Part shown: positions 1,556 through 23,272 of the stretch, piece after piece
How the letters are laid out: each line of letters starts with the position of its first letter
Numbering within the stretch: position 1 is the first letter of the stretch
Assembly: GCF_023638035.1 (NCBI RefSeq)
Contig: NZ_JAKRVX010000007.1
Span: forward strand, 62,001 to 126,000
DNA length: 64,000 bases
Direction: 5' to 3'
Source of the DNA: Natronocalculus amylovorans
Lineage (GTDB): Archaea; Halobacteriota; Halobacteria; Halobacteriales; Haloferacaceae
Notes under the pieces: generated by a model
What the model saw: the letters and a program-made list of their open reading frames with translations, nothing else
Databases searched by the model: none
Told to the model about the DNA's origin: nothing
Position numbers and translations under genes: made by a program

Positions 1556-2803
1556 TCAGTTTGCGTGTGGGTCTCCGCATAGTTCTGCAACAAGCCCCGC
1601 GTATATTTCCGTATTCTTCCGAAGTGCTTCGATCGTTGTGTACTCATCGACCCCATGAACCGTGTCAGTCCCTACGCCAAACTCAACGGTTGGAATACCT
1701 GCATTTCGGAGTTTCTTCACATCACCACCACCGGTGGCGCTTCGGGCATGGAGGCTCTTACCAGTAACAGCGGACACGGTGGACTGTAACGCCGATACAA
1801 GCGGACTTGAAAGCGGTTCGTATGTTCCTGTGCTCCAACTGACGTCTGCGATCGAAACCGCAGGAAACTCCGAGAGACACTCACGGATGTCAGAAAGCAC
1901 CGCTTGCGTCCCAACGCCAGGACTGAGCCGGATATCGACACGAGCACGTGCCTGCTCTGGGACGCTGTTAACTGCGGTTCCACCTTCGATCGTCCCAACA
2001 TTGACTGTTGGGTGTTCAAACAGTTCGGCCGCAGCCTCTCGACCGATCGAATCCGCATAATACTCGACTGACTCACCAATAATCGGCTCAACATCAGGAG
2101 AGAATTGGAATGTTCGGTCCGGGAGTCGCTGATTGAGTGCAGCAAGTACCTCACAGAGTCGATCGATCGCATTATCACCAATCATCGGACGTGACCCATG
2201 TGCAGCAGTTCCTTCTGCCGCAAGTGTGAGCCAGATGCTTCCTCGATCAGCAACGGTAACCGAGTATCGATCGATAGTGCTTGTTGTTTCGCCAATGACG
2301 GATGCATCAGCGCGAAGCATGTCGGCATCAAGTACTGATGGCAAGCCAGCTTGCCCTGCGGTCTCTTCATCGCTTACAAACAGAAATTGAACGGTTATTG
2401 GTGGCGTTGAATCCAAGGTAGCGAGTGTATCTGCAAGGACAAGCATTGATGCGAGTGCACCTTTCATGTCTGTCGCCCCCCGACCGTAGATGCGATTGTC
2501 GACACCCTCACCAAGCGGATCGTATGACCACTGCGAGTCATCAAATGGGACCGTATCGACGTGTCCCTGATACAGGAGCGTATACTCAGATTCACCGGGG
2601 ATCGTCGCAAGCAGATTCGGTTTCGCCTCGTCCACAGCAAGCCGTCTTGTTTCGATGTTTCGATCGGTGAACCAGATTTCAAGCCAATCGATCGCCGCAC
2701 GAGTCCCTCCGGGCGGGTTCTGCGTGTCGATCGAGAGCAGCGATAACAGAGTCTGGAAATACGTATCGTCAGGAACCGATCGGACAGACGCAGTGAGATG
2801 CAT
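1556..2803 (-). CDS. M20 family metallopeptidase / deacylase (ArgE/DapE-like)
   Basis: A 415-residue zinc-dependent amidohydrolase of the M20 family, which cleaves amide bonds in N-acyl amino acids or small peptides. Metal and catalytic residues are visible in order: GHVDTVP (His, Asp), GRGATDMKG (bridging Asp), SDEETAG (catalytic Glu pair), an IGE segment and a late His in TVHGVDEY. The domain inserted at about 190-300 is the dimerisation lid. The start at 2803 (MHLTASV) was preferred to an upstream one because the 32 extra residues look like non-coding DNA and the family starts near here. Substrate cannot be read from sequence; acetylornithine or succinyl-diaminopimelate deacylase and carboxypeptidase G2-like activity are all possible. 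A TATTGT-N9-ACAATA repeat (2832-2852) lies just upstream. Confidence 0.9.
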   Translation of the reverse strand: MHLTASVRSVPDDTYFQTLLSLLSIDTQNPPGGTRAAIDWLEIWFTDRNIETRRLAVDEAKPNLLATIPGESEYTLLYQGHVDTVPFDDSQWSYDPLGEGVDNRIYGRGATDMKGALASMLVLADTLATLDSTPPITVQFLFVSDEETAGQAGLPSVLDADMLRADASVIGETTSTIDRYSVTVADRGSIWLTLAAEGTAAHGSRPMIGDNAIDRLCEVLAALNQRLPDRTFQFSPDVEPIIGESVEYYADSIGREAAAELFEHPTVNVGTIEGGTAVNSVPEQARARVDIRLSPGVGTQAVLSDIRECLSEFPAVSIADVSWSTGTYEPLSSPLVSALQSTVSAVTGKSLHARSATGGGDVKKLRNAGIPTVEFGVGTDTVHGVDEYTTIEALRKNTEIYAGLVAELCGDPHAN

Positions 2804-2928
2804 ATTTGGGACTATGTATGAAGGGAATAAATATTGTATCTTTTTCACAATACAGACCCCATGCCCAAAATCTCGGATCTGTTTGTGCAAGTATGACACG
2901 AACGTGGAAAACAGTGTGTTCGTGGAGG

Positions 2929-3105
2929 CTATATCGTATCTTGGCTGTCAGTGGATGGTGGTGTGATACCCAGCCGCCCTTCAACAAATGCCGCAATATC
3001 GGCAGCAAACGCCTCAACTTCAGTCCAATCAGTGAATTCGACATCGCCGTGCGGGTCTAGATCTGGTATTTCGGAGATGGTACGCTTGGCAATCTGTTTC
3101 ATCAT
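2929..3105 (-). CDS. Small acidic hypothetical protein (58 aa)
   Basis: A short open frame of 58 codons starting with two Met codons (3105 or 3102) and ending TAG at 2929. The product is acidic in its middle (DLDPHGDVEFTDWTEVEAF), which is the composition expected of a haloarchaeal protein and not of random DNA. No family was recognised. It lies between the M20 gene and the giant surface gene on the same strand as M20, with an AT-rich stretch (ttttataac on its strand) only about ten bases before the start, which is closer than a usual archaeal TATA box. That weakens the case, so it could also be the remnant of a longer gene. Confidence 0.5.
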   Translation of the reverse strand: MMKQIAKRTISEIPDLDPHGDVEFTDWTEVEAFAADIAAFVEGRLGITPPSTDSQDTI

Positions 3106-3461
3106 CAGTCGTTATAAAATGAGGCTGAAATACTCATGCCTATTTTGTGCTTTTTTACTGGAGGTTAGTATACAATATATGCTAGATCCCACTATTGTAG
3201 TATACCAATACGTTATCCAAGGCAACCGCAAGCACCGGAAATAGCCGAGTTGAGAGCCGCAAACAAGAGCGTTGGTTTTCGATTCTATGAGAGGGCCATA
3301 GTCGCTCTCAATTTTTATTGTTTACTCAGTCCCGGTCTACTCTGTTACCACTGTGATAGGTAGGATGAGGTCCATTTGAGACAGTCACTTACTTTGATAT
3401 AACCTTCTCAGTACAGGTAGGGTAAGCAGAATGTTATGTACTTTTTTCAGTTTTAGTACTT
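3106..3461. other. Intergenic region before giant surface gene
   Basis: About 356 bases without a convincing gene. It presumably holds the promoter of the 12.5-kb gene that starts at 3462; the bases just upstream (3430-3460) are T-rich, with no strong Shine-Dalgarno, so a leaderless or short-leader transcript is likely. I see no repeat or RNA gene here. Confidence 0.5.
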
Positions 3462-6400
3462 ATGCGAGTATCAGGAATACGTAGTCGACATGCAATACCT
3501 ATCAGTATTGGTATTGGTGTCATTCTACTCCTCTATATTTTTAGCGCAGGTGCAGGTGCAGTAAGCGTTGACGATCGGGTTATCCCGAGTGAGTTTGAGA
3601 CAAACGAAAGCGACATTCTTTGGGAAAGTGACGTTGACTTGTCGACCGATCGATCACCAGTAGTCGTTGATGGAATCCTAGTCACCACCACTGGATCCTC
3701 GTCAAGTGGTGAACGTGTGGTTGCATATGATGTTGGGACCGGCGAACAACGGTGGGAAGTCGGAATCTCTGCGACAGGTACGGCAACAGTTGTTGATAAC
3801 ACCGTGATTGTGACCACGGATGACTCGGTGTACGCGCTTGATCTACGTCTCGGTGCGATACAATGGCAGACCGCATTTGATAATTCAGGTAGGATCTCGA
3901 AGACACAGGCTGTTGGTGGTGGAACCGTCTATGTTGCTAAAGATGTTAATTCGAGTACCGATCGGCTCTATGCGCTTGATGCAGAGACTGGAGCCGAGAG
4001 CTGGGACACTGAAATCGAGTCTGTTCTTTCTGGACCAACATATATTGATGAGGTGCTCTACATTGGCAGTCAAGATGGGTTGCGGGCAATTGATCCAACG
4101 GATGGATCCGAACAGTGGCACTGGGAATCTACTGGGGTACTCGAAGACAGTGGTGCAATATCGGAGCCAACCGTTGCTGATGGTCTTGTTTACATTAGCT
4201 ATCGAGAAGGTGTTGGGTCAACCACCACGGACTATGAGCTGTTTACAATCGCGATTGATGTAGAGACTGGAGACAAGGAGTGGAGATTTGAGTTTGATGA
4301 TCCCATAGAGGGCCTACCACAGACCCCTTCTGCACCAACCGTTGCAGGTGATGGCGGCGAATCAACAGTCTATGTTTCATTTGATGGATTGTACGCATTG
4401 AACGCAACAGACGGTGATAAGAGATGGACCGACGAGACACGTGTGTTTGATCCGCCAACGGTTGCTGATGGAACGCTCTTTGTCCCACAATCAACCGAGT
4501 CCGAATCACTCAGAGCGATCGACCCAACAGATGGGAGCGAGCTTTGGACCGTAGAGACTGGCGACCGAAGCAGTGTCATTGTCGTTGATGGCATCGTGTA
4601 CGTTGCGGTACAAATCAGTGATACACGATTGATGGCGATCGATGCAGGTGACACCGTTTCCGGATCAAGCAGTGACTCGCGAGTGATGCTTGCAAGCGAG
4701 ACTCACCATCACAACTCGAGTGGTGACATTCCAGATAGCGACCCACGGGTTATCGATATTGCATTCGATGAGGGCGTGTTTGTTGAGGAAGCGTTCGACG
4801 TTTCTGTGACGGTGAGAAATGACTGGAGTCCAACGAGAGCAGAAACCTATACGATCGCGCTAGATGGTACTGAGGAAAGCGAGATGATCGAGATTCCAGC
4901 ATATGGAACGAATACAGCTACGTCCTCGCTGACCGCACCATCGACAGCAGGCGAGTATGACATAACCGTCAATGGTGTCGAGTACGGAACCGTCACTGTC
5001 GTTGATAGCGAGTATCCACTCATCCGATCGAACATCTCGTTCTTTGAGACCATTCTCGAAGGGGATTCAGTGAGGGTTGCCTACGATGTAACAAACCTCG
5101 GTGATGGGTTGGCAAACGAAAATGAAGAACTCTCGCTTGAAGGGCCTGGCTTCGATGATCGAGAGGTTGTTGCTTCTCAATCAGACACTGAAGGAATCAA
5201 CGAAGGCGAAACGAGTCTGATCATATTTACAACCGATCCAATCGAGACACCTGGTGAATACACAGCGTATCTTAATGACCAGTATATTGGGGCAATCGAG
5301 GTGTTGCCAGAAGATGATCCTGTATACCGCACGGATGTAAACCAGCTTCAAAACTCGATTATTAGTGGGATCGAAGCACCGGTCGATCCAAGCGCTGCAG
5401 GTACCGTCTATGTTGATGTCCGGTACGAAAATCTTGCGGAGACTGAGAATGAGGTTGAAATCGAGCTTGTTGCACTGAATGAAACAACTGGAGCTGAAGT
5501 TGCAAGCGTGACTGAGATGATTTCAGTTCCCGGTGAGGATACGGTTACAACACGGCTTGGCGTATCAATCGCCGAGCCCGGGGTCTACGATCTCGAAGTT
5601 GATGGGACACCGATCGGACAGGTTGAGGTGCTCGTTGCTGGCGTCCAAGATGGCGATAGTATTCAGGCAGCGATAGACGCTGCCCTGCCCGGTGATACGA
5701 TCATCGTGGGCAACGGTACCTACGAAGAATCGCTGACGATTGACAAACCACTCACGCTCCGGGCGGTCTCCGAGGGTGGGGCGGTTCTTGATGGTAGTCA
5801 AGAAAACTTCGAGCGGGCGATAACGGTCACCGACGATGACGTCAGCGTTGAAGGGTTCCAGATTGAGGGGTACACAGGAAGCGGAGGCGGGTTCGGTGAT
5901 GCCGCGGTGTTTGTCGGTGGTGAACGGTTCACTTTCCTCAACAACACCATCACCGGCTCCGTTGACGGTATTCAGACGCAATCAAACACGGACAGCCACG
6001 AGATGCTAATCGCTGACAACCACATCCATGACAACGATGGGGATGCGATTGCGTTTGCGAACCAGGCCGATGACGTTTCCATCCTTCGTAACATTATCAC
6101 CGACAATGGTGGGGACGGAATCGATCTCGGGAACAGTAACGATCGGTTCACAGTTGACGCGAACGAGATACACAGAAACGGTGTCGGAATTACACACGAC
6201 CAGAATGGCGGTGACAATGGAGCGGTAACGAACAACACAGTAACGCAGAACTCTGGGATTGGAATTGAGCTTGGCACGTTCGGGTCCAATAATGAGATAA
6301 CCAATAACACCGTCACAGGAACTGAGAACGGCATCGAAGCCGGAACTGACGAGATACGTTACAACCACGTGACGTCACGAGATGGCGTTGCGATCCGAGC

Positions 6401-9400
6401 TCGTGGCGCTTCAATTGTGGCACACAACACGATAGAGGATGCAAATGTCGGAGTTAATCCACGTGTCAGTGTGCTGGATGGGACAACCATCGAGAATAAC
6501 ACGATACACAATGTTTCGCTTGCGATCGGTGGCGCCGGTGACGGCGTAATCGTTCGTGAAAACACGTTTTCGAAAACTGACACCGATCTCGAACTTGTTG
6601 ATGCGCTTAGTGCGACTATCACGGACAACGACTTTGCCACTGGTGTTCATCTCAACGGGGCTCCCGAAACCCTCGATGACGAGCCACACGAACTGTCCGG
6701 AAACACAGTTGGCGGTGATCCGCTCGTATACGCAGTCAGTGAAGACAGCCCCGACATTGCTTCGGATGCCGCACAAATTATTCTCGTCGACGTGACGAAC
6801 GTCGATATTGATGACTATTCATTCTCAGATGTGGCTGCGGGCGTCCAAGTGACCCACTCCGAGGCTGTCACCGTGACTGGCACAGAATTTACCAACATCA
6901 CTGCGTCATCTGACGCTAGTGGAATCAACGGGGCAGTCAGATTTTGGTACTCTTCATCAGTAACCGTTGACGACTTTGAGATCACCGCGTCGAATAGAGG
7001 AGCCTACATTGGAGAGAGTGACGGTGTGACAATCTCAAACGGGCTTATAACCGATGGCTCACCAGCGATCGATCTCTTTGGAGAGAATACCGATGTTGTC
7101 ATCAAGAACAACGATATTTTCGAGGGACAAGGCCATCTCGGGACGGGTATCCGGATCAGTCAGTCTGATGGACTCTCGATCACCGGAAATACTGTTCGGG
7201 ACGCAACTACCGGCATTACGATTAATAGAGCCACCAACGCAACCATCACGGACAATATTGTTGAGGATGCAACCGTTGGTGTTCGATTCGGTAACCAGCC
7301 TAGTGGTATTTCGGCCGACATCGGAGATGTCGTCTTTACGAACAACACGGTTACTGGCAGTGACAGAGACGGTGCCATTGTCGACCGTGGTGCACTGACC
7401 GGGAACGTGACGATCACCGATAACGTCGTGACGAACACTGGACTCACCACCAGCCCATCGTTCGATCCAGTGGGACTTGACCTTACGATCGAGGGTGAGA
7501 CAGTTACAGTTTCGAACAACACGATCACCGACAACGAGGGAGAGATCGGCGCTACGCTCGATATCGATGCGGATGTGGTAACGGTTGCAGATAACTTCGT
7601 AACTGACAACGACGTCGGCACCGGATTCGAGATTCATCTCAACACGACGGATGGCACGATCGCTTCGAACACCGTCCGAAATAACGGCGACGGACTCGTT
7701 GTGACCGGTGAGACCGCAATTGGTGGCGTAAGTGCCACCATCACTGAAAATATCATTGAGGAGAACGAAGGTATTGGGCTCACCGTGGGTGGATTCTACG
7801 AAAGCTTCCTCGTCACTGAGAACTCGATCGCCGGTAACGGTGATGGACTCTTCCATAATCCTGGAGATGCGTACGTCCTGGATGCAAGGGACAACTGGTG
7901 GGGTGATTCAAGCGGTCCGAATGGTGACGTAATTGATAATGAAACCAGCGTCGTTGCTGACGGAAGCGGCGACTCGATTACGATAGGTGACGTAGGGTGG
8001 GTGGATGATGACTCTGTTCGATTCGACCCGTGGCTCGATGCACCGATCGTCGACACTGGAACTCTCTCCGGGACGATCGCTGATGTAGCCACCGACGAAC
8101 CGATCGACGGTGCGACGATCGAGATAGCGGACTCCTCGGCGTTCGTCAAGACTGTTGAAACAGACGCTGATGGTAGCTATGAAGTCAGCGTTCCGATCGG
8201 AATGTACGCGCTCACGGTAACCGCACCCGGGTACAATGAATCTGTGACTGAAGACGTTTCAGTTGCCAGCGGTGAAAGTACTACTCAAGATATTGATCTC
8301 TCAGAGCTTGCCTCGTCACTCACAGGAACGATTGTCGACGAAGATGGAAACCCAATCGGTGGTGCAGTACTCCACGTGATCGAACAGCAAGGTGACGGAG
8401 ATCCAACTCCCGAGCCGGATGGGTTTACGACAACTGTGACTACAGATAGTACCGGCGACTACAGTGTCGATGTTCCATCAGGTGTGTACAGGTTTGATCC
8501 GATCGAAGCAATCGGCTTTGCGGATGGGTTGTGGCAAAATATTGTGGTCGCAAGTGGTGAACAAAAAACACTCGACTCGATTGAGTTGAGAGAAACTCCG
8601 GTACTCTCAGGTACTGTTACTGATTCAGAAACCGGTGAGCCGATCGAAGGTGTCGAGATTGAATCACGGTTCTTTACGAGTGAGCCATTATATACGGCAA
8701 CGACAGATGAAGATGGAGTATATTCGATCAATATTCCGGTAGGTGGGAATATGATACCAACAGTCGAATTCTCCGCTGAAGGCTACGCAACATCGTTGCT
8801 TGATGGTTCAGAGACTGATTTGACAGCGTCGACGGTTATAGATCTTGAACTTGATCCAACTGGGACCGTAACTGGGAGCGTCACAAATGAAACCGGCTCT
8901 TCAATCTCTGGGATCAGCGTGACTGCATCCACAAACGACGAGTGGGCCGGAAGCACAATGACTGATGAAAATGGCGTCTACTCATTTGATGTTGCATACG
9001 GAACGTATGATCTTGCATTTGAACAGCAACCTATCGGAAGCGACTATCAGTCAAAGACCGTTTCGGATGTTGTAGTTACCAGTGGAGAAACGACGACGAT
9101 CGATGCCGAGCTTGAGCCTGTTCCAGACCTAGGAACGATCGCAGGCGTTGTTACAAATGAAACTGGTGATCAAATCGAAGGCGTCGAAGTGCAGGTGTTT
9201 GATGCATCAACAAATAGCCCAGTCTTCCAACCAACCGAACCAACGCCTGGTATTGTTGCTGCCGATGACTTGGGTGATTCTGAGCGGTCGGAATGGCCAA
9301 CCACGGACGCAGATGGTGCATACTCGATCGACGTACCCCCAGGGACATACACCGTCCAAATACTGACTGAAGAACAGGTCGCTGCCCCAGTGACAGTCGA

Positions 9401-12400
9401 AGTTGCTGAAGGCGAAATAGTGAATGATATTGATCTGGATGTTGAGCCGATCCCAGATCCAGAGTTGGTTGACATTGACGTGTCGATCCAGTCTCAAGAG
9501 AGCACAACCAACGTCGAGGTTGGAGATGAGATTACAATTACTGCAACGATCGAAAATGTCGCCGACGAGATTGCAGTGACGATGGCAGGGCTTGCGATTG
9601 TTGAACCCGGTCTCATTGAAGATAACGAACTCACCGAACTGTCTACTGATGACGTAATCGAAGACGAAGTTGCGGGGCTACGGATCATTGCTTCTGGTGA
9701 TACTAAGACACTTGAATTCTCTTTCAACGCTCGGAGTGCATTTGATGGTGCAGATGCAGTTGTTTTAGCAGGTGTGATGGGTGCAGACGAAGATGAGGTG
9801 GTGGAGTTCGATACGATCGAACTCTCAGTGAGCGATAGCGAAGACCCAGACCCAACCCCAGAACCAGAGCTCGCTGTTCATGACGTTGCTGTCATACCAG
9901 CGGAGCTTGAAACTGGAGAGGAGGCGACGATCGACGCCACTGTTGAAAACGTTGGAACAGCGGATGGCGAACTGGCTGTCCCGCTCGAAATCAATGGCGA
10001 AACTGTGGATACAAAGACCGTATCTCTGGATGCGGGTGAAGAAAGCACGCTCACATTTACTCAGACATTCGAGAGCGCTGGTGAGTTTGAGCTACGCGTT
10101 GGGAGTGAAGCAGCGATCGTTACAGTGACGGAAGATACTACAGCGGATATATTCATATACGGTGCAGCTCTCAATGAGACGTCGATCGTTGTTGGTGAGA
10201 CGGTCACAATTTCTGGTGACTTATTCAATGATGGGTCGGAAGTCGAAATGTACGATGCTGCGTTAGGTGTCAATGGCGAGGAGATTGAGACGTCGAGTGT
10301 TGAGGTGGGGCCTGGTGCGACACCTGAAGGGGTTTCGTTCGAGTGGACACCAACTGAAGGCGATCTTCCAGATGGAGAAGACGAGCTGAATGCGACGATT
10401 TCAATCAATGGATTTGTTGTGGGAACGCTCCACATTACAAACGAGTTCACCGACATCCGCGTCATTGCTGCCTCCGCTTCTGAGACTGAAATCGTTCAGA
10501 ATGAAGAATTCTACGTGGTTGGGAGCCTCTATCAGAACGGGACGATCGATGGGCCACAAGATATCGTTCTGAATGCGACTAATGAAGAGACTGGCGACGT
10601 GACCGAGCTTGGGCGTCAGGAACGATCGCTTACTCCAGGTTGGTACCATCTTGGTGGAGTCAATATTACTGGCATAGTCGAGACACCAGGAACGTATGAG
10701 CTCACACTTGGCGATCGGTCTGCCGGAACGATCGAAGTGATTGAAGCACAGTCTGATATCCAAGTGATTGCGGCATCCCAATCGACAGACGAAGTTATTG
10801 AAGATGAAGATTTCTACGTAGTTGGAAGCCTCTATCAGAACGGAACGATCGGTGGCCCACAAGACATTGTTCTAAATGCTACAGATAAAGAGACTGGTGA
10901 AACGGCCGATATTGCTGTTGACGAGGATCGGACGCTTTCTCCTGGATTCTACCACCTCGGTGGAGTCAATCTGACCGCTACGATCGAGACACCAGGAACG
11001 TATGAGCTCACACTTGGCGATCGGCCTGCCGGAACGATCGAAGTGGTTGAAGCACAGTCTGATATCCAAGTGATTGCGGCATCCCAATCGACAGACGAAG
11101 TTATTGAAGATGAAGAGTTCTACGTAGTTGGCTCGATCTACCAAGCAGGGAACATTGATGGGCCACAGAATATCACACTCAACGCGACTCCAACAAATGG
11201 TGGGTCACCGATCAAAATTGCTGTTGACGATGATCGGGCCCTTTCTCCTGGGTTCTACCATCTTGGCGCCATTAATTTGACCGGGACGATTTCGGAGTCA
11301 GGAACGTATGAGTTGACACTTGGCGATCGATCTGCGGGGACGATCGAAGTGATTGAAGCACAGTCTGATATCCAAGTGATTGCTGCATCCCGATCAACAG
11401 ATGAAGTCATTGAAGATGAAGAGTTCTACGTAGTTGGAAGCCTCTATCAGAACGGAACGATCGGTGGCCCACAAGACATTGTTCTAAATGCTACAGATAA
11501 AGAGACTGGTGAAACGGCCGATATTGCTGTTGACGAGGATCGGACGCTTTCTCCTGGATTCTACCATCTTGGCGCCATTAATCTGACCGCGACGATTTCG
11601 GAGCCAGGAATGTATGAGATTCACCTTGGCGATCGGTCTGCCGGAACGATCGAAGTGATCGAAGCACAGTCTGATATCCAAGTGATTGCAGGCTCGGCAT
11701 CCGAAGATACAGTCATTGAAAACGAAGCGTTCCATGTCGTTGGGAGCCTCTATCAGAACGGAACGATCGACGGACCACAGGACGTCGTTTTGAACGCAAC
11801 CAATCAAGACAGCGGTGAGGTAATCACGCTTGGAAGCCAAGAGAGAACTCTCACGCCCGGATTTTACCACCTTGGAGCGATCAACATCACTGCCGAGTTC
11901 GAAGATGAACAGGCAGGTAACTACACGCTCACACTTGGCGATCGAACTGTCGGCGAGATTGAGGTCGAACCAGCTGAGACCGACATTCAGGTGATTGCGG
12001 GCTCTGTGAGTGAAATGAACCTTACCGTGAACGAAGAGTTCTACGTTGTCGGAAGTATATATCAGGCTGGCAACATCAACGGAACACAGGAGATCACACT
12101 CAACGCAACGCACAATGAAACAGGGAAAACGACCGAGCTTGGGTCACAGAATGCGACACTCGCACCTGGGTTCTATCATCTCGGCGCAATCAATATTACT
12201 GGGAGTCTCGATGAGTCTGGACGGTATCATCTCACTCTTGGCGATCGAGATGTCGGAACTATTGGTGTCAATGAGTCACCATCAGATATCAACGTCATTG
12301 CTACCACGCTCTCCGAAATAGAGGTGCTTGAGAACGAGGAGGTGTATGCTGTTGGAAGCATCTACCAAGCTGGTGACGACGGGTCTCAAGAAATTGCACT

Positions 12401-15400
12401 GAAGGCGACGAATCAAGAGACCGATGAGACCATCGACCTTGGGAGCCAAGAAGTTGAGCTTGCATCTGGGTTCTACCACCTTGGTGCAATCAATATTACA
12501 TTCAGTATTGACCAAGCGGGGGTCTATGACCTTACACTTGGTGGGGCAGATGCAGGAACGATCGAAGTAATCGAAGCACAGTCTGATATCCAAGTGATTG
12601 CCGCATCTCGATCGACAGATGAAGTTATTGAAGACGAAGAGTTCTATGTCGTTGGCAGTCTCTATCAGAACGGGACGATCGAGGGGCCAGAAGACACGGC
12701 ACTCACTGCAACTCCTACAGACGGTGGTGAAACGATTGAGATTGGCATCGACGAGGACCGGACGCTATCTCCGGGATTCTACCATCTTGGTGCGGTCAAT
12801 CTCACCGCTACGATTGCAGAACCAGGAACGTATGAGATTCATCTTGGCGATCGGTCTGCAGGAACGATCGAAGTAATCGAAGCACAGTCTGATATCCAAG
12901 TGATTGCCGCATCCCGATCAACAGATGAAATTATTGAAGACGAAGAGTTCTATATCGTTGGCAGCCTCTATCAGAATGGCACGATCGAAGGGCCAGAAGA
13001 AGTTTCCTTAAACGCCACCAACGAAGAGACTGGTGAGACGATTGAGATTGCCGTTGACGAGGGCCGGACGCTATCTCCTGGGTTCTACCATCTTGGTGCG
13101 GTCAATCTCACCGCTACGATTGCAGAACCAGGAACGTATGAGTTGACGCTTGGCGATCGATCTGCGGGAACGATTGAAGTAATCGAAGCACAGTCTGATA
13201 TCCAAGTGATTGCCGCATCCCGATCAACAGATGAAATTATTGAAGACGAAGAGTTCTATGTCGTTGGCAGCCTCTATCAGAATGGCACGATCGAGGGGCC
13301 AGAAGACACGGTACTCACTGCAACCCCTACAGACGGGGGTGAGACAATTGAGATTGCCGTTGACGAGGGCCGGACGCTATCTCCGGGGTTCTACCATCTT
13401 GGTGCGGTCAATCTCACCGCAACGATCGAGACACCGGGAACGTATGAGATCCATCTTGGCGATCGGAGTGCAGGCACGATCGAAGTGATCGAAGCCCGAA
13501 CTGACATTCAAGTAATTGCAGCCTCAGCCAATGCATCCGAGATTGTCAAAACAACAGACTTCCACGTTGTTGGGAGCCTCTATCAGAACGGAACGGTTGA
13601 TGGCACAGAAGAGATCTTGTTGAACGCAACCAACGAAGACACTGGTGAAACGATCCAACTTGGGTCTCAAACGGCAACGCTCTCTCCAGGGTTCTATCAT
13701 CTCGGTGCGATCAACATCACGGGTACGCTCGATGATGCCGGTACGTACACGCTTACACTTGGCGATCGAACGGTAGGGCCACTGACTGTCACTGGATCAT
13801 CGGTCGACGCTTCAATCGTCGAGGTGGACTCCCATAGTACTGGAATTGATACAGAGACCGAGATAGAGCAACACTACGCGAGCGAAGACGTTCCTGTGAC
13901 GGTCGATATTGATGCAGATGTGGAACTTGAGACCGTGAACGTACTCCTCAGCTCCCAAGAGACCACCTATGTACAGGCGTTCAGCGCAACGCATGTCAGT
14001 GATGATACCTGGACGGTAACCATCCCATTGTCGTCAATCGAAGATGACGGCAGGTATGAGATATCTGTTGTAGCTGTAGATCGGCTTGGAAGCGCTGACA
14101 CGGATACGGCTGATAAGCCGGTCGTAATCGATCGCGAGGAACCCCGACTCTCAGCTACGCTTGAAGATGTGGACGATGAGAGTGCAACCGTTGTTGTTGA
14201 GAGTGACACCCCACTAAGCGAACCACCAACCGTGGAGGGAACATTCACGAGTTCGACCGACGAGACATCTGGAACAGCTACAATGACTGCAACAGACGGG
14301 ACCAATACAACGTTCACCGGATCATTTGCAACTGGAGAGACCGGCAACTACTCGATTACAAGCACTGGTGTCGATCGCGCCGGTAACGAAGGGACAGATA
14401 CAGCGTCAGCATACGTTGATACGCGATTCACGCTCGGTGATGGCGTTATCGAGATTGCCGACACTGGCACGTCGATCGAGTTTGATATCGCCGATGACGC
14501 AGATGATGCGATTCGTACCCAAGAACTGTACACATCGTTATCCGAAACAACCGCAAACGCAAACCTCGGTGATGGAGAACTCGGAGTTGGGTTCATAACT
14601 GCCGAACTGGATAGCCTGCTTGATTACTATCTCGACCAGGGAACAGTTGAAAGCGCGACCATCTCGATGGCGATCGATGAAAGCGAACTCCCAGCTGGGG
14701 CAACCACAAATGAAGTTGAGCTGCAATACTACAATGCGGATGCCGAGGCATGGGATCCGGTTGCAGGATCGGATTTCACTCAGATCAATGGCGACCCATT
14801 CGTGACTGCATCTGTTACCAGTTTCTCGACATACGGTGCATTCGTACCAGATACAGGCGAACCAGTCATCAAGAGCCGATCGCCAATCGATGGGGCAACG
14901 ATTGGTGCCGATCAGACCGAAGCAATCATTGAATTTGAGTATCATGACGATCGCTCCGGGGTTGACCGTGGATCAGTAACGATCGAAGTTGACGGTGAGG
15001 ATGTGACTGACAGCGAGGAGACAGAGATTACATCATCAACAGCCACACATACCCTCTCGGTCGATTCAGGTGAATCGTACACGGCAGTTGTCACGGTGTC
15101 CGATTATGCCGGTAACACTAAAACTGCAGAGACGACGTTCACCGTCGACGCAGCCGATGACGACTCTGATTCGGCTGATGACTCAGGCTCTGACTCTGAC
15201 TCAAGTTCAGACAGCACTGACCGAGAGCAAACACCAGATCCATCCCCTGCAATTCCAAATCCACCTGCTGGAACGGAGATTCTCTCAACCGTATTTGCAA
15301 CGCTTGAGACAGATCACATCGCAGGGACTACGATTGCAGCGTTTGACAACAGTGAGACGCTGCAAACCATAGAGTTTGATGACGTAACGGATGGCGATGT

Positions 15401-15917
15401 GGTCGTAAATGAGCTCAATGGAATACCACAACACGCAGCCAAGACCGATGGCGAAATTATCAGTACAGTTCAGATTACGGTGCCGGATGGAGTCAAAGAG
15501 ACGTCAGCGACGATCACAACAACCGTGTCCACCGATCGACTCGAAGAGCATGCAGGCTCAAAAGATGCACTGACACTCGTTCGGCTCAACAGCGACAGTG
15601 GCCAGTGGGAGGAGCTCTCGACAACAGTTGTTGATGAGACTGACACACAGGTTACCATTGCATCAGAAACACCTGGGTTCTCAGTATTCGCGGTAACAAC
15701 GCGTACAGAGAGTGAACAGGACACCGAAGACGCACCTGTGACGGAGACGGAAACAGGCACCGAAACTGTTGGGCAAACGTCTGATGAACCACCAACAGCA
15801 ACAACCGAAGATGGTACAGCTGATGAAACAGAGAGTATAATCCCGGGATTCAGTGTCGTTCTCACTGTGATCGCGCTGCTCTCAATTGCGGGTATTGCTG
15901 CACGCAAGCGCAATTAA
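3462..15917 (+). CDS. Giant multi-domain PGF-CTERM surface protein
   Basis: A 4151-residue exported protein. A signal peptide (about 1-33, hydrophobic IGIGVILLLYIF) is followed by a PQQ-like beta-propeller (about 45-410; repeated blades with YALD or RAIDPTDGS-x-W), CARDB-like beta domains (about 430-720), a right-handed parallel beta-helix of the NosD/CASH type (about 725-1490; opens DSIQAAIDAALPGDTI, many NNTVTG rungs, closes NWWGDSSGP), four or five carboxypeptidase-regulatory-like domains (about 1533-1985), more CARDB-like domains, eleven tandem repeats (2330-3447), Ig-like folds, a PGF-pre-PGF domain (about 3942-4084), a Thr/Glu-rich linker and a C-terminal PGF-CTERM signal (PGFSV, hydrophobic helix, RKRN; from 4127). 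PGF-CTERM proteins are processed by archaeosortase and lipid-anchored to the cell surface. N-glycosylation sequons are numerous. Role inferred: adhesion, matrix or S-layer-associated scaffold. The reading frame is intact. Confidence 0.92.
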   Translation: MRVSGIRSRHAIPISIGIGVILLLYIFSAGAGAVSVDDRVIPSEFETNESDILWESDVDLSTDRSPVVVDGILVTTTGSSSSGERVVAYDVGTGEQRWEVGISATGTATVVDNTVIVTTDDSVYALDLRLGAIQWQTAFDNSGRISKTQAVGGGTVYVAKDVNSSTDRLYALDAETGAESWDTEIESVLSGPTYIDEVLYIGSQDGLRAIDPTDGSEQWHWESTGVLEDSGAISEPTVADGLVYISYREGVGSTTTDYELFTIAIDVETGDKEWRFEFDDPIEGLPQTPSAPTVAGDGGESTVYVSFDGLYALNATDGDKRWTDETRVFDPPTVADGTLFVPQSTESESLRAIDPTDGSELWTVETGDRSSVIVVDGIVYVAVQISDTRLMAIDAGDTVSGSSSDSRVMLASETHHHNSSGDIPDSDPRVIDIAFDEGVFVEEAFDVSVTVRNDWSPTRAETYTIALDGTEESEMIEIPAYGTNTATSSLTAPSTAGEYDITVNGVEYGTVTVVDSEYPLIRSNISFFETILEGDSVRVAYDVTNLGDGLANENEELSLEGPGFDDREVVASQSDTEGINEGETSLIIFTTDPIETPGEYTAYLNDQYIGAIEVLPEDDPVYRTDVNQLQNSIISGIEAPVDPSAAGTVYVDVRYENLAETENEVEIELVALNETTGAEVASVTEMISVPGEDTVTTRLGVSIAEPGVYDLEVDGTPIGQVEVLVAGVQDGDSIQAAIDAALPGDTIIVGNGTYEESLTIDKPLTLRAVSEGGAVLDGSQENFERAITVTDDDVSVEGFQIEGYTGSGGGFGDAAVFVGGERFTFLNNTITGSVDGIQTQSNTDSHEMLIADNHIHDNDGDAIAFANQADDVSILRNIITDNGGDGIDLGNSNDRFTVDANEIHRNGVGITHDQNGGDNGAVTNNTVTQNSGIGIELGTFGSNNEITNNTVTGTENGIEAGTDEIRYNHVTSRDGVAIRARGASIVAHNTIEDANVGVNPRVSVLDGTTIENNTIHNVSLAIGGAGDGVIVRENTFSKTDTDLELVDALSATITDNDFATGVHLNGAPETLDDEPHELSGNTVGGDPLVYAVSEDSPDIASDAAQIILVDVTNVDIDDYSFSDVAAGVQVTHSEAVTVTGTEFTNITASSDASGINGAVRFWYSSSVTVDDFEITASNRGAYIGESDGVTISNGLITDGSPAIDLFGENTDVVIKNNDIFEGQGHLGTGIRISQSDGLSITGNTVRDATTGITINRATNATITDNIVEDATVGVRFGNQPSGISADIGDVVFTNNTVTGSDRDGAIVDRGALTGNVTITDNVVTNTGLTTSPSFDPVGLDLTIEGETVTVSNNTITDNEGEIGATLDIDADVVTVADNFVTDNDVGTGFEIHLNTTDGTIASNTVRNNGDGLVVTGETAIGGVSATITENIIEENEGIGLTVGGFYESFLVTENSIAGNGDGLFHNPGDAYVLDARDNWWGDSSGPNGDVIDNETSVVADGSGDSITIGDVGWVDDDSVRFDPWLDAPIVDTGTLSGTIADVATDEPIDGATIEIADSSAFVKTVETDADGSYEVSVPIGMYALTVTAPGYNESVTEDVSVASGESTTQDIDLSELASSLTGTIVDEDGNPIGGAVLHVIEQQGDGDPTPEPDGFTTTVTTDSTGDYSVDVPSGVYRFDPIEAIGFADGLWQNIVVASGEQKTLDSIELRETPVLSGTVTDSETGEPIEGVEIESRFFTSEPLYTATTDEDGVYSINIPVGGNMIPTVEFSAEGYATSLLDGSETDLTASTVIDLELDPTGTVTGSVTNETGSSISGISVTASTNDEWAGSTMTDENGVYSFDVAYGTYDLAFEQQPIGSDYQSKTVSDVVVTSGETTTIDAELEPVPDLGTIAGVVTNETGDQIEGVEVQVFDASTNSPVFQPTEPTPGIVAADDLGDSERSEWPTTDADGAYSIDVPPGTYTVQILTEEQVAAPVTVEVAEGEIVNDIDLDVEPIPDPELVDIDVSIQSQESTTNVEVGDEITITATIENVADEIAVTMAGLAIVEPGLIEDNELTELSTDDVIEDEVAGLRIIASGDTKTLEFSFNARSAFDGADAVVLAGVMGADEDEVVEFDTIELSVSDSEDPDPTPEPELAVHDVAVIPAELETGEEATIDATVENVGTADGELAVPLEINGETVDTKTVSLDAGEESTLTFTQTFESAGEFELRVGSEAAIVTVTEDTTADIFIYGAALNETSIVVGETVTISGDLFNDGSEVEMYDAALGVNGEEIETSSVEVGPGATPEGVSFEWTPTEGDLPDGEDELNATISINGFVVGTLHITNEFTDIRVIAASASETEIVQNEEFYVVGSLYQNGTIDGPQDIVLNATNEETGDVTELGRQERSLTPGWYHLGGVNITGIVETPGTYELTLGDRSAGTIEVIEAQSDIQVIAASQSTDEVIEDEDFYVVGSLYQNGTIGGPQDIVLNATDKETGETADIAVDEDRTLSPGFYHLGGVNLTATIETPGTYELTLGDRPAGTIEVVEAQSDIQVIAASQSTDEVIEDEEFYVVGSIYQAGNIDGPQNITLNATPTNGGSPIKIAVDDDRALSPGFYHLGAINLTGTISESGTYELTLGDRSAGTIEVIEAQSDIQVIAASRSTDEVIEDEEFYVVGSLYQNGTIGGPQDIVLNATDKETGETADIAVDEDRTLSPGFYHLGAINLTATISEPGMYEIHLGDRSAGTIEVIEAQSDIQVIAGSASEDTVIENEAFHVVGSLYQNGTIDGPQDVVLNATNQDSGEVITLGSQERTLTPGFYHLGAINITAEFEDEQAGNYTLTLGDRTVGEIEVEPAETDIQVIAGSVSEMNLTVNEEFYVVGSIYQAGNINGTQEITLNATHNETGKTTELGSQNATLAPGFYHLGAINITGSLDESGRYHLTLGDRDVGTIGVNESPSDINVIATTLSEIEVLENEEVYAVGSIYQAGDDGSQEIALKATNQETDETIDLGSQEVELASGFYHLGAINITFSIDQAGVYDLTLGGADAGTIEVIEAQSDIQVIAASRSTDEVIEDEEFYVVGSLYQNGTIEGPEDTALTATPTDGGETIEIGIDEDRTLSPGFYHLGAVNLTATIAEPGTYEIHLGDRSAGTIEVIEAQSDIQVIAASRSTDEIIEDEEFYIVGSLYQNGTIEGPEEVSLNATNEETGETIEIAVDEGRTLSPGFYHLGAVNLTATIAEPGTYELTLGDRSAGTIEVIEAQSDIQVIAASRSTDEIIEDEEFYVVGSLYQNGTIEGPEDTVLTATPTDGGETIEIAVDEGRTLSPGFYHLGAVNLTATIETPGTYEIHLGDRSAGTIEVIEARTDIQVIAASANASEIVKTTDFHVVGSLYQNGTVDGTEEILLNATNEDTGETIQLGSQTATLSPGFYHLGAINITGTLDDAGTYTLTLGDRTVGPLTVTGSSVDASIVEVDSHSTGIDTETEIEQHYASEDVPVTVDIDADVELETVNVLLSSQETTYVQAFSATHVSDDTWTVTIPLSSIEDDGRYEISVVAVDRLGSADTDTADKPVVIDREEPRLSATLEDVDDESATVVVESDTPLSEPPTVEGTFTSSTDETSGTATMTATDGTNTTFTGSFATGETGNYSITSTGVDRAGNEGTDTASAYVDTRFTLGDGVIEIADTGTSIEFDIADDADDAIRTQELYTSLSETTANANLGDGELGVGFITAELDSLLDYYLDQGTVESATISMAIDESELPAGATTNEVELQYYNADAEAWDPVAGSDFTQINGDPFVTASVTSFSTYGAFVPDTGEPVIKSRSPIDGATIGADQTEAIIEFEYHDDRSGVDRGSVTIEVDGEDVTDSEETEITSSTATHTLSVDSGESYTAVVTVSDYAGNTKTAETTFTVDAADDDSDSADDSGSDSDSSSDSTDREQTPDPSPAIPNPPAGTEILSTVFATLETDHIAGTTIAAFDNSETLQTIEFDDVTDGDVVVNELNGIPQHAAKTDGEIISTVQITVPDGVKETSATITTTVSTDRLEEHAGSKDALTLVRLNSDSGQWEELSTTVVDETDTQVTIASETPGFSVFAVTTRTESEQDTEDAPVTETETGTETVGQTSDEPPTATTEDGTADETESIIPGFSVVLTVIALLSIAGIAARKRN
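10449..13803 (+). repeat. Eleven in-frame tandem repeats of about 305 bp
   Basis: Inside the giant gene, eleven units of 100-103 codons follow head to tail. Each opens with a version of SDIQVIAASRSTDE, then EEFYVVGSLYQNGTI, then LSPGFYHLGAINLT, and ends with TLGDRSAGTIEVIEAQ. Units 2 and 4 share a long near-identical DNA block (about 10820-10965 and 11424-11570), and units 8 to 10 are also nearly the same, while 1, 5, 6, 7 and 11 are diverged. This points to recent duplication or gene conversion within an older array. Confidence 0.95.
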
Positions 15918-15950: not shown

Positions 15951-17924
15951 TCATCCGTCGAATCGAAGTAGTCGAAGCCCAATCAGGCTGACAAGGACTG
16001 TCGAACCTTCGTGTCCAATCACTGCAAGCGGCAGCGGAATACCGGCTGTAAGGATTGCAATAATCATAATCGCGATCGCCCCAAATGCGATCGAGAAATT
16101 AATATACAATGTTCGTCGCGTTTTCCGACTCAGCGCAAAAGCGTACGGAAGCCGATCGAGCCGATCGGACATTAATACGATATCAGCGGTCTCTAGTGCA
16201 ACGTCGGTGCCAGCACCACCCATACCAATGCTGATATCAGCCGTTGCAAGTGCAGGAGCATCGTTTACTCCATCGCCAACCATCGCAACGGCTTCATACT
16301 GCTCTTGGAGCGTTTCGATATGGCTCACTTTCTCCTCAGGAAGGAGCTCTGCATACACCGCATCAATACCCAGTTCATCCGCGATATACCGAGCAACGCG
16401 CTCGTTGTCGCCAGTGAGCATCACGATGTGTTTGACCCCCCGATCGCGAAGCTGTTCGATCATTCCAGCCGCATCTGGTCGGATCGTATCCGTAAATGCA
16501 AGCCACCCAAGTACAGAGCGACCGCTGTCGGATTCGCGGACGACAAGCACACTCGTTTTTCCGCTGTGTTCCAACTCGCGGACTGCATTGCGTCCTGTTT
16601 CAAGTCCCTCGATCGGATCATCCATCGATTCAAAATATCTCGAATTGCCGATATGGATTAGATCACCATCAACAGTCGCGTTAACGCCTTTTCCGACAAC
16701 TGCCTGGAACCCAGTTGCGGTTGGGATCGAGAGCGATCGATCGCGTGCTGCATCAACCGTTGCCTCCGCAAGATGATGTTCTGATCTTGATTGGACAGCG
16801 GCCGCGATCGACAAGAGCAGATCGGTAGTGAGTGGCCCATCTGCAACTGTTGCGCCATCTCGGGGTGAGACATCGGTTAGTTGGGTGTTACCCTCTGTGA
16901 GCGTCCCGGTTTTATCGAACGCGACCGCGTCGACGTAGCCTGCAGTTTCGATATGTTCACCGCCTTTGAACAAGACACCTTGGCGGCCACCCGCAGAGAT
17001 TGCAGAGAGGACTGCCGCAGGTGTTGAAATAATAACTGCACAGGGAGATGCAGCAACCATGAGCGTCATTGCACGGTAGAGCGTCGGCTCAAAACTGTGG
17101 TTGAGCAACGCCAGTGGAAGTACAATCGCGACTGCTGTGAGGGTAAACACACCCAGTACGTATGGCTGTTCGAATCGATCGATCAGCTGTTGGGTGGGTG
17201 CTCGTTTGTTCTGTGCAGTTTCGACCATGTGGATAAGTCGGGCAATAGCGGATTCGTGTGCCTCTTTCGTGACTCGCACTTCGAGACTCCCTGCTTCGTT
17301 GATCGTCCCGCTAAAAACCTCATCTCCAACCGTTTTCGTCACAGGAACGGATTCACCAGTCAACGAAGCCTGATCGATCGTGCTCTCTCCAGAGACGACA
17401 ACGCCATCAAGAGGAAGCCGATCACCGGGGCGGACAACAAAGACATCGCCAACGTCGACGTCATCAACTGAGACGGATACTTCTTCACCGTCACGGAGCA
17501 ACTGTGCAGTTTCGGGACGCATATCGATGAGTGACCTGATCGCCGTTCGAGAGCGGCCGATCGCATACGCCTCTAACACACCGGAGAGTGAGAACAAGAA
17601 CAACAGCATCGCACCCTCAAACGGGGCACCAATAAAGAGTGCGCCAAGCGCAGCGGCAATCATCAGAAGATCAATCTCAATTGCTGGCTCCGCTAACGCT
17701 TCGACACTCGCTTTGAGTCCATACCAGCCACCGAATATGTACGCAACACCGTAGCTAACCCACACAACGGTTGGATCAAAATTGAACCAGCTGCCAATCA
17801 GTCCGGTGAGCATCCCACTAAATGTGAGAAGAACGAACAGAGACTGCCTCCGAAGCACCGATCGATCGGTTGCTTCCTTTGGCGAATCTTGTGTAGCCGA
17901 AACAGATTGTGAAGCAGTCTCCAT
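15951..17924 (-). CDS. P1B-4-type heavy-metal ATPase (Co/Fe/Zn export type)
   Basis: A 657-residue membrane pump. It has no N-terminal HMA domain. Visible motifs: TGES in the actuator loop, SPC (AASPCAVI) in the metal-binding helix in place of CPC, DKTGT phosphorylation site, GDGVNDAPAL hinge, and HEGST in the last helix pair. SPC together with HEG(G/S)T and a missing N-terminal metal domain defines the P1B-4 subgroup (CoaT, CtpD, PfeT relatives), which exports Co2+, Fe2+, Zn2+ or Ni2+; the substrate here is not determined. Odd feature: the P1B nucleotide-domain His-Pro pair reads SEHHLA, with His in place of Pro. It lies downstream of the 18023 membrane gene and NosDFY on the same strand and may be cotranscribed. 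Eight or fewer membrane helices are expected. Confidence 0.88.
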   Translation of the reverse strand: METASQSVSATQDSPKEATDRSVLRRQSLFVLLTFSGMLTGLIGSWFNFDPTVVWVSYGVAYIFGGWYGLKASVEALAEPAIEIDLLMIAAALGALFIGAPFEGAMLLFLFSLSGVLEAYAIGRSRTAIRSLIDMRPETAQLLRDGEEVSVSVDDVDVGDVFVVRPGDRLPLDGVVVSGESTIDQASLTGESVPVTKTVGDEVFSGTINEAGSLEVRVTKEAHESAIARLIHMVETAQNKRAPTQQLIDRFEQPYVLGVFTLTAVAIVLPLALLNHSFEPTLYRAMTLMVAASPCAVIISTPAAVLSAISAGGRQGVLFKGGEHIETAGYVDAVAFDKTGTLTEGNTQLTDVSPRDGATVADGPLTTDLLLSIAAAVQSRSEHHLAEATVDAARDRSLSIPTATGFQAVVGKGVNATVDGDLIHIGNSRYFESMDDPIEGLETGRNAVRELEHSGKTSVLVVRESDSGRSVLGWLAFTDTIRPDAAGMIEQLRDRGVKHIVMLTGDNERVARYIADELGIDAVYAELLPEEKVSHIETLQEQYEAVAMVGDGVNDAPALATADISIGMGGAGTDVALETADIVLMSDRLDRLPYAFALSRKTRRTLYINFSIAFGAIAIMIIAILTAGIPLPLAVIGHEGSTVLVSLIGLRLLRFDG

Positions 17925-18022
17925 GGAGGTATGTTGAAAACAGAGTTTGATAAGGATTTAGGTAGTAATGTCTGCAGCATACAAAGCTGTAGGGACGCGA
18001 ACGGTCACGATTGTCGAATGTC

Positions 18023-18331
18023 TCATGCCGAAAATATGTATGGGTCTCGCTCGTGCCATGCAGCAAAGAGCCCAAAAGTCATCAATGTGAAAAACCCGAT
18101 AAGTAAAAATCCTGCACTAAGTAGCCCGATCGGGTGTGGAAATGAGATGAGCGTTCCTTGCTCAAGTCCGATCAATAGCTGAAAACCCAACCAAAAAATA
18201 AACGCAGGGAGAAAATACCGCCTACTGCGGTTAGTCTCGGTTATTTTTGGTATAATCAAGAGGATACAAATTCCGGATAGTGGAATAATGATCCCGACAA
18301 GATTCTGTTCTCCGCCGACCCAATCGATCAT
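18023..18331 (-). CDS. Small membrane protein, about three helices
   Basis: A 102-residue hydrophobic protein with about three predicted transmembrane segments (roughly 10-28, 40-58 and 68-90) joined by short charged loops (ITETNRSRRY). No family was recognised. It sits between the NosY-like permease and the P1B-4 ATPase on the same strand, about 100 bases from each, so it could belong to the same transcript and act in metal handling, but nothing in its sequence shows a metal site apart from one His-Glu pair near the C terminus (AWHERD). Confidence 0.6.
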   Translation of the reverse strand: MIDWVGGEQNLVGIIIPLSGICILLIIPKITETNRSRRYFLPAFIFWLGFQLLIGLEQGTLISFPHPIGLLSAGFLLIGFFTLMTFGLFAAWHERDPYIFSA

Positions 18332-18431
18332 TAGCGTAGCTTTTGTGTCACAATAGCATATATTCTTTCACGTATCTCCAGTGAGAAATCCTACGCGGTC
18401 GGTAACTGATCAGAAGTTTCGTCACGATATT

Positions 18432-19256
18432 TCAGACGGTTCGGCGATGGAGAATGAGCGTTGCAGAAATAAGCGAGAAGATTGTCCACGCGAACAATCC
18501 AGCAACGCTCGTAATTGGTGACCCGTAGCCGCTTTCGGAGGCAGCAGTGACTGCAATCACCGTCTCAAAGACCGCACCACGGTACGCACTGTTCGGTGCG
18601 ATCGCCAGTGCATTCAAGAGATCTGCTTCTGCGATCCAGCCATCAGTGAGCCCAAGAATGATTGCTGCATCACCAGCAACCACAACAAGCACAACGGCCC
18701 CAACAGCAAGTGCGATCGCGGTCAGTGTCGATTGTGCAGCAACCGACATCAACAGAACGATCGCCAGTAATGCAAGCGCAAACACCAGCGTAAGCACAAT
18801 AAATCGGGCAAACAGCAGTGGGGAGTCTAAGCCAGTGTGAGTCGCAAAAATACTGGTATCCGGCCCCGATGAAAACGAAACCAACAGCAACGTCGCGAGT
18901 AGCCCACTCCCGAGGATTACTGACAGAACAACCGCTCGTCCAGCATAGATTGCAAATACGTACACCGATGATGGAACGTCGTATGTTTTCAACACCGCTA
19001 ACTCGCCGCGTTCAAGATCCGAGACCACACTTCGGTAGCCGATCGCAATCGCAAGCACGGGGACAAGCACCTCAAGCGGGAGCAAAAGATCGACAACTGT
19101 TGGAACGTATCCAGTGGCAGCGCCACCACCACCAGCAGTTAATGCAAGCAGAAGACCAATGACGCCCACAGTGATGAGATAGTATACACGTGTGCGCATC
19201 GCTGTTTTGAGTTCACGTTTAAAGAGTGCAAAAAACGTTGAAACAATCGTACTCAT
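18432..19256 (-). CDS. nosY: NosY-like ABC transporter permease
   Basis: A 274-residue integral membrane protein with six predicted helices, of the ABC-2 / NosY type. The segment GYRSVVSDLERGELAVLKT after helix 2 is the cytoplasmic coupling region, matching the SGERExGTL-like motif of NosY proteins. In the known Nos system NosFY is an ABC transporter that works with NosD in assembling the copper site CuZ of nitrous oxide reductase, probably through sulfur or copper supply. The start at 19256 overlaps the end of the NosF gene by four bases (ATGA), showing translational coupling. No nosZ is present in this window, so the target may be encoded elsewhere or be a different copper enzyme. Confidence 0.88.
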   Translation of the reverse strand: MSTIVSTFFALFKRELKTAMRTRVYYLITVGVIGLLLALTAGGGGAATGYVPTVVDLLLPLEVLVPVLAIAIGYRSVVSDLERGELAVLKTYDVPSSVYVFAIYAGRAVVLSVILGSGLLATLLLVSFSSGPDTSIFATHTGLDSPLLFARFIVLTLVFALALLAIVLLMSVAAQSTLTAIALAVGAVVLVVVAGDAAIILGLTDGWIAEADLLNALAIAPNSAYRGAVFETVIAVTAASESGYGSPITSVAGLFAWTIFSLISATLILHRRTV

Positions 19257-20020
19257 TGGGTGACCTCCGTATTCGTTTGCGGTGTCTCAGTTGCTGTGAC
19301 CGCATCATAGACCTCCCACAAGTCGGCCACACTGTGTGTTTGACACAGCTGTTGTGGTGGCCCTTGTGCGGCGATCTGTTTGTCGTGAAGGAGAATGACT
19401 GTATCCGCATATCGTTCAACAAGCGCGAGGTCGTGTGAACTCACGATCACAGCAGTACCACGTTCAGCAAGTTGTGCGGTGATCTCGAATGCTTTTGTTC
19501 CCATTGTTGGATCCAGCCCGCTTGCTGGTTCGTCGAAGATCACAGCCGGCGGGTTACCCACAACGGACTGTGCAATACCAAGCAAGCGTGTCATTCCACC
19601 CGACAGCGCCTCAACAGGCCGATTTCTGACGTCATAGAGATCAACCTGTGTGAGCAACTCTTTCGTGTCAGTTGGGGTTTCAAGCAACGACGCATAGAAC
19701 GAGATCGTCTCTTCGACAGTGAAATGGGGCCGGAATGCAGGTTGCTGTGGGAGGTAGCCGATCGGCCGCTCAACAGCGGGACCGGCGTACTCAACGTTTC
19801 CAGCCGTGGGCTCGAGATGGCCAAGCAAGAGCCGCAACAGCGTGGTTTTTCCGGTCCCATTTGGGCCGATCAGTGCGGTCACGCTTCCCGCATGAACGGT
19901 CAGATCGATCGAATCAAGAACCGTTAGTTCGCTGTACTGCTTTGTGAGGTCGGTCGCACGAAGAACAGCCTCTTGAGACGTGGCTGCTGGTCGAGTGTTG
20001 GTAGATTGTTGCTTACTCAT
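19253..20020 (-). CDS. nosF: NosF-like ABC transporter ATPase
   Basis: A 255-residue ATP-binding subunit. Walker A is GPNGTGKTTLL, the signature is LSGGM, Walker B is AVIFDEPASGLDP, and the switch histidine lies in VIVSSHDL. The start at 20020 (MSKQQST) was chosen because the frame upstream runs through the end of nosD and because it gives a normal N terminus; it overlaps nosD by eight bases. The gene also overlaps nosY by four bases, giving the order nosD-nosF-nosY on the minus strand. It should power the NosY permease on the cytoplasmic face. Confidence 0.92.
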   Translation of the reverse strand: MSKQQSTNTRPAATSQEAVLRATDLTKQYSELTVLDSIDLTVHAGSVTALIGPNGTGKTTLLRLLLGHLEPTAGNVEYAGPAVERPIGYLPQQPAFRPHFTVEETISFYASLLETPTDTKELLTQVDLYDVRNRPVEALSGGMTRLLGIAQSVVGNPPAVIFDEPASGLDPTMGTKAFEITAQLAERGTAVIVSSHDLALVERYADTVILLHDKQIAAQGPPQQLCQTHSVADLWEVYDAVTATETPQTNTEVTQ

Positions 20021-21959: not shown

Positions 21960-22075
21960 ATAGGACGTTTGTGACGCAGTGGTTTATCATATCTGGTGCA
22001 ACAGTCGAAACCCAATAAAACAGAATTGTACCACAATGCGCGCGTAACGAGCAACAGGTTTAATACAATAGACTT

Positions 22076-22091
22076 TGTATTGTGCAATACA
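22076..22091. promoter_or_regulatory. Inverted repeat TGTATTG-TG-CAATACA between nosD and tusA
   Basis: A perfect 16-base palindrome-like site (7-bp arms, 2-base spacer), ending 12 bases before the tusA ATG. A TATA-like stretch (tttaatac, about 22059-22066) lies at its upstream side, so the repeat would cover the transcription start of tusA, a classic position for a repressor. The divergent nosD promoter is within 120 bases and might share control. Confidence 0.6.
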
Positions 22092-22103
22092 CCCAATAAT
22101 ACA

Positions 22104-22361: not shown

Positions 22362-22363
22362 AA

Positions 22364-22930: not shown

Positions 22931-23005
22931 GACAACGGCGATTAGCTACTCGTACGTGTCACTCTTCTTCAATAAAACTGAACAACGAGTGGTAACACAG
23001 CCTCG

Positions 23006-23221: not shown

Positions 23222-23272
23222 GAGAGGTAATACGATCATTTGCATAATAAATGTTGTACGCCGTTCGATCGC

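Follow-up and report, generated by a model that had tools for sequence, protein, structure and literature searches.

What is the 4151-residue protein encoded near the start of the window, the 64,000-nucleotide stretch of Natronocalculus amylovorans DNA analysed here, built to do, and how is its long array of repeats arranged? The open reading frame (3462-15917, + strand) ran from ATG to stop through 4151 codons without interruption, and its product contained no cysteine and 789 acidic versus 125 basic residues, a makeup as would be expected of an exported haloarchaeal protein. The original prediction had placed a single intact frame at exactly this position and length, with a PQQ propeller, a NosD-type beta-helix, carboxypeptidase-regulatory-like domains, eleven repeats and a PGF-CTERM anchor. 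Pfam matches were obtained for each of the first three, the repeats were found as tandem units (Table 1), and the anchor scored above the NCBIfam cut-off and slightly under that of Pfam (17.5 bits versus 18.8). A PGF-pre-PGF domain, absent from that list, was also identified. The beta-helix and the propeller both scored far under the cut-offs for the true proteins (111 versus 300 bits for the NosD subfamily; 80 versus 285 bits for the BamB equivalog), so the names NosD and BamB are used here as fold-family labels only.

Table 1. Features of the giant gene and its upstream region, in window coordinates.
Feature	Position	Strand	Residues	Basis or remark
Proposed operator, degenerate inverted repeat CACTTAC-TTTGATA-TAACCT	3386..3405	+		Same place upstream in relatives
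Promoter element TAAGCAGAATGTTAT	3423..3437	+		Exactly 39 nt before ATG; conserved in relatives
Signal peptide (predicted)	3462..3566	+	1-35	Basic start, hydrophobic stretch, AGA-type end, judged from sequence
PQQ/BamB-like beta-propeller	3597..4646	+	46-395	PQQ_2 1.5e-31
Linker, about three CARDB/Ig-like domains	4659..5660	+	400-733	325-390 bits versus same-head relatives
NosD-type right-handed beta-helix	5664..8051	+	735-1530	Beta_helix 3e-45, NosD 2e-30
Five carboxypeptidase-regulatory-like beta-sandwiches	8061..9491	+	1534-2010	CarboxypepD_reg 6e-42, five stretches
CARDB-type domains preceding the array	9489..10448	+	2010-2329	CARDB 3.6e-9; common to most relatives
Eleven-repeat array	10449..13802	+	2330-3447	Tandem units of ~102 aa (range 100-103)
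Repeat 6 (c1), in the middle of the array; its linker to repeat 7 is altered	11979..12281	+		Leave-one-out profile
Repeat 7 (c2), second of the central pair	12282..12581	+		Leave-one-out profile
Conserved C-terminal core: two Ig-like domains with a middle domain (invariant FSTYG) between them	13803..15146	+	3448-3895	
PGF-pre-PGF domain	15348..15698	+	3963-4079	TIGR04213, 50.2 bits versus cut-off 28
PGF-CTERM sorting signal	15840..15911	+	4127-4150	TIGR04126, 25.1 bits versus cut-off 24.5

The signal peptide would export the giant, and archaeosortase A would then cut it, leaving a C-terminal tether. Two marks of a PGF-CTERM substrate were found, namely the C-terminal PGF motif with its hydrophobic stretch and basic tail, and a cognate ArtA encoded in the same genome (TIGR04125, 307 bits versus a cut-off of 75); in Haloferax, such substrates receive a lipid anchor via ArtA (PMC7157517). 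The genome also encodes the N-glycosylation enzyme AglB (892 bits), and 36 of the 61 sequons in the giant fall inside the array, the combination of sequons and AglB that marks AglB-glycosylated proteins. Surface anchoring is thus very likely, and we infer export and glycosylation of the repeats, in which AglB would attach one glycan per shaft repeat. The giant shares its tripartite C-terminal signal, a genomic ArtA and sequons with PGF-CTERM/ArtA substrates such as the S-layer glycoprotein, but it is far larger, carries heads and a symmetric repeat shaft, and is not an S-layer protein.

The repeat unit was characterised by profile and structure searches. Seventeen repeats scanned singly gave no known Pfam Ig-like family (best E 0.004, Invasin_D3, in one repeat only), and the array repeat had no significant PDB sequence match. 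Structure prediction by segment, put forward as a check alongside the original prediction, covered two repeats and the C-terminal core. An AlphaFold2 model of repeats 8-9 only reached a pLDDT of 90.6 with eight strands per unit, and the repeat models as an Ig-like sandwich; its Foldseek matches (transglutaminase, complement C3, RbmA) were at low TM, so it is assigned to a fold class only. This two-repeat piece displayed neither a bend nor a dimer. The model of the C-terminal core had a pLDDT of 78 with a poor middle domain, and its nearest PDB structures in Foldseek were bacterial adhesin extender domains (4p99, 6xi3, 2yn3). One N-X-S/T sequon column was filled in 313 of 316 repeats (197 of 198 in the initial proteins and 116 of 118 in those added later). 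Since serine and threonine alternate in this column and its middle residue varies, the pattern points to glycosylation rather than to a fixed structural residue, although it is not proof; the sequon is almost invariant in a domain that has no Pfam entry. A role for the repeats in copper binding, considered because of a PCuAC match and copper genes nearby, was rejected, as individual repeats failed to match (best 0.02) and the conserved histidine was Tyr in 19 of 189.

The giant proved to belong to a family of at least 32 members, 2200-4360 aa long and mostly from Natrialbaceae; a 3671-aa paralogue, likewise with eleven repeats but with another head, is encoded in the window genome itself. Of the 392 genomes of the class searched with a repeat profile, 75 gave matches, in many cases a single weak one, and long repeat arrays occurred in about 30 of the 392, chiefly in one family; the named matches were mainly Natrialbaceae, with others in Halorubrum, Halovenus and Natronomonas. 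The working set comprised 32 members with complete arrays, all of which have the repeats; 22 members entered the alignment of the C-terminal core, and the core tree was built on all 32. The layout of the window giant is not a product of chance, since many genomes encode relatives built in the same way. Distant repeat proteins of 27-29% identity were also seen at L009, L013 and L010 (frames of 1064-2493 aa, genomes G014 and G038), and near the paralogue on contig C15 lies a further large exported protein of about 1890 aa (L006, 8659-14325).

Comparison of the relatives suggested a division into an exchangeable head, consisting here of the N-terminal propeller, beta-helix and beta-sandwich stack, and a common chassis that would comprise a shaft of 7, 9 or 11 domains and the C-terminal core. 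The relatives carried a propeller with a helix, a helix by itself, a helix with carboxypeptidase-regulatory domains, carboxypeptidase-regulatory domains only, or no recognised head. The propeller was conserved in G121, L023, L026, L031 and L035, and in the core tree the propeller-headed members did not group as a single clade; admitting the two relatives nested among them, L025 and L027, did not change this (AU p 0.02). Between G121 and L026, identity was 76% in the head and 52% in the core. By these sequence comparisons, head and core histories differ, and heads have been exchanged relative to the core.

A head containing a beta-helix and a propeller could also belong to a cell-wall-associated binding protein or enzyme, in which the helix would bind or cleave polysaccharide and the propeller would bind a ligand, serving nutrient capture together with adjacent kinases. 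NosD/beta-helix folds often bind carbohydrate, kinases are indeed among the neighbours, and several hosts are named as polysaccharide degraders (Natronobiforma cellulositropha, Natrarchaeobius chitinivorans). However, the Pfam scan gave no confident catalytic domain or carbohydrate-binding module, and the shaft is kept while heads vary or are absent; we judge this explanation improbable. The original prediction had instead pictured a long anchored stalk carrying modules, which agrees with the signal peptide, PGF-CTERM with ArtA, and sequons with AglB, and is further backed by the Ig-like repeat model and the relatives with exchanged heads. The protein may also have the role it suggested, that of a cell-cell or cell-matrix connector. 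Family membership, the conserved sequon, the symmetry of the array about a constant middle repeat and the shared promoter go beyond the original prediction. No description of this giant family was found in the literature searched, and the repeat type with its sequon, the centred array rule and the promoter common to related loci are new.

Within otherwise homogenised arrays (repeat identity 72% within one protein versus 59% across proteins), two adjacent inner repeats, c1 and c2, were distinctive. Leave-one-out profiles picked out the expected c1 repeat in all 18 arrays and the expected c2 repeat in 15 of them, compared to 1/18 and 0/18 for the positions flanking the pair; in the window protein, the c2 profile favoured repeat 11 over repeat 7. 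The middle-repeat rule was derived from the first 20 proteins and then checked on 12 new ones, which are not fully independent since several are closely related to those 20: c1 and c2 were adjacent in 12/12 and c1 was exactly central in 12/12 (6 of 11, n = 6; 5 of 9, n = 5; 4 of 7, n = 1). Array sizes across the 32 proteins were 11 repeats (n = 16, L030 being counted with 11, its last one degenerate), 9 (n = 14), 7 (n = 1) and 8 (n = 1, L028), so that 31 of 32 were odd; the array of L027 is interrupted by an assembly gap, and some assemblies may collapse repeats. The differences of c1 from the other repeats were concentrated near its end, where a small residue stands in place of E97 and P100 gives way to E (26/32), which marks the c1-c2 junction as special. 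Apart from the central pair, the repeats showed no general positional orthology (0.362 versus 0.367 shuffled), and mirror-pair similarity between the arms was slight (80.2 versus 78.8%). A two-repeat period was also rejected, as lag-2 similarity was not above that of shuffled arrays (p 0.49).

Well-supported branches of the core tree, and likewise of the centre-pair tree, carried no fewer than 6-7 changes between 9 and 11 repeats. In the centre-pair tree, 9- and 11-repeat arrays were intermixed and a single clade of 9s was rejected (AU 9e-28), indicating that array size changed around a retained centre and that both arms repeatedly gained or lost one repeat together. This regularity might have a purely mutational origin, two or three ancestral array sizes having been spread by whole-array gene conversion or transfer among paralogues and genera, with no selection on length. 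Conversion between paralogues of one genome is clear: L082 and L083 have nearly identical central pairs (distance ~0) and diverged cores, the window centre pair is nearest to that of its own-genome paralogue, and the array and core trees conflict. The intermixing of 9s and 11s and the number of changes argue against such an origin, which we consider rather unlikely as a full account; gene conversion among paralogues may contribute, and the repeat rule could partly reflect it.

Since matched arms flank one conserved middle repeat, we propose a symmetric working form. The shaft would either fold back at the middle pair, placing that pair outermost as a tip, or pair antiparallel with a second copy on the same or a neighbouring cell, aligning the two middle repeats with each other. 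The locus is best explained, with fair though limited confidence, as encoding a regulated, glycosylated, surface-anchored giant modular adhesin with a shaft folded, or paired, symmetrically around its midpoint; judged from sequence, adhesion is likely and the symmetric geometry plausible. The stronger proposal of a centre-symmetric adhesin class, hairpins or antiparallel homodimers (the latter possibly between cells) in repeat-by-repeat register with the middle repeat rather than the head as tip or dyad, is tentative, and if true, array size would set a defined reach or cell-cell distance. The array could instead form a straight, rigid, glycosylated stalk that raises the head past the S-layer, the middle repeat being a docking or stiffness element and the odd count a matter of ancestry. 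This is the standard design among repeat adhesins and is consistent with the homogenisation of repeats in each protein and with the extender domains matched by the core. However, it does not need an exact midpoint, and ancestry alone fails to explain repeated paired arm changes around the same repeat; we hold it to be possible without expecting it. The numerical rule of 7, 9 or 11 repeats with a fixed middle predicts a structure.

The symmetric adhesin reading was compared with known giants. The extender domains of bacterial giant repeat adhesins (MpAFP, SiiE) appear structurally nearest to the membrane-proximal core in the models, whereas their anchor and sequence differ. To our knowledge, no bacterial giant repeat adhesin has its repeats centred on one special repeat. 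The two-partner adhesins CdiA/FhaB carry a receptor-binding tip mid-chain (PMC5371414, PMC9424206) and offer a works-like analogy only, as they have a beta-helix filament, a CdiB exporter and a toxin and no homology to the window giant. Halomucin of Haloquadratum walsbyi (9159 aa) is likewise a giant haloarchaeal protein that is secreted and has a signal sequence, described as extracellular, loosely cell-attached and mucin-like (PMC4378361). The available part of that account mentions no PGF anchor or comparable repeat array, which sets halomucin apart by description, and it is a one-off, whereas the window giant is one of a family. Archaeal cell-cell contact molecules are little known, and these giants constitute a defined family.

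Upstream of the gene, the promoter element TAAGCAGAANGTTAT was found, with small variation, at a spacing of exactly 39 nt from the ATG both in the window and in seven relatives (L021, L023, L025, L026, L027, L035 and L093; at most three variable positions), and it had a single match in the window genome even when one mismatch was allowed. Among the 392 genomes it was no commoner than its reversed control (10 versus ~21, counted by eye), so only its position and spacing carry weight; 7 of the 10 matches lay 39-41 nt before giant surface genes. The motif was rejected as part of an upstream coding extension, as no in-frame start codon occurs from motif to ATG in the window. In genome G354, a second copy of the element lies 41 nt before the start of a different 3074-aa PGF-CTERM giant (L081, 4921-14145, - strand). 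In Halorubrum sp. JWXQ-INN 858 (L035, 1387-11974), the ATG after the element is out of the frame of the long open reading frame, and the array contains an assembly gap.

A candidate operator, an inverted repeat, lies ~20-35 nt upstream of the promoter element; it was strongest in L090/L091, L093, L028 and L092, and in L090/L091 it came nearer to a palindrome (CACTTAGGGAAACCTAAGTG), whereas the window copy is weak. An HxlR-type regulator was encoded near 16 of 33 loci, directly upstream in about eight, and receiver-ATPase proteins and 7TM histidine kinases lay near others. The shared promoter and the frequent proximity of an HxlR-type regulator and histidine kinases in relatives suggest that the giant is probably made on demand, with the HxlR-type protein and the palindrome as the putative regulatory wiring. 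A candidate regulator and a promoter site are thereby provided; like the defined family, the repeat domain and the numerical rule, they are testable in cultured haloarchaea. In the window genome, a 7TM histidine kinase, a receiver-ATPase and an HxlR-type regulator form a three-gene set (L097, 6722-11237) on the contig of the giant gene, about 45 kb ahead of it. Downstream of the giant gene (15951-25684) lie two P-type metal ATPases, a NosD-like protein with an ABC ATPase and permease, and a TusA-like gene.
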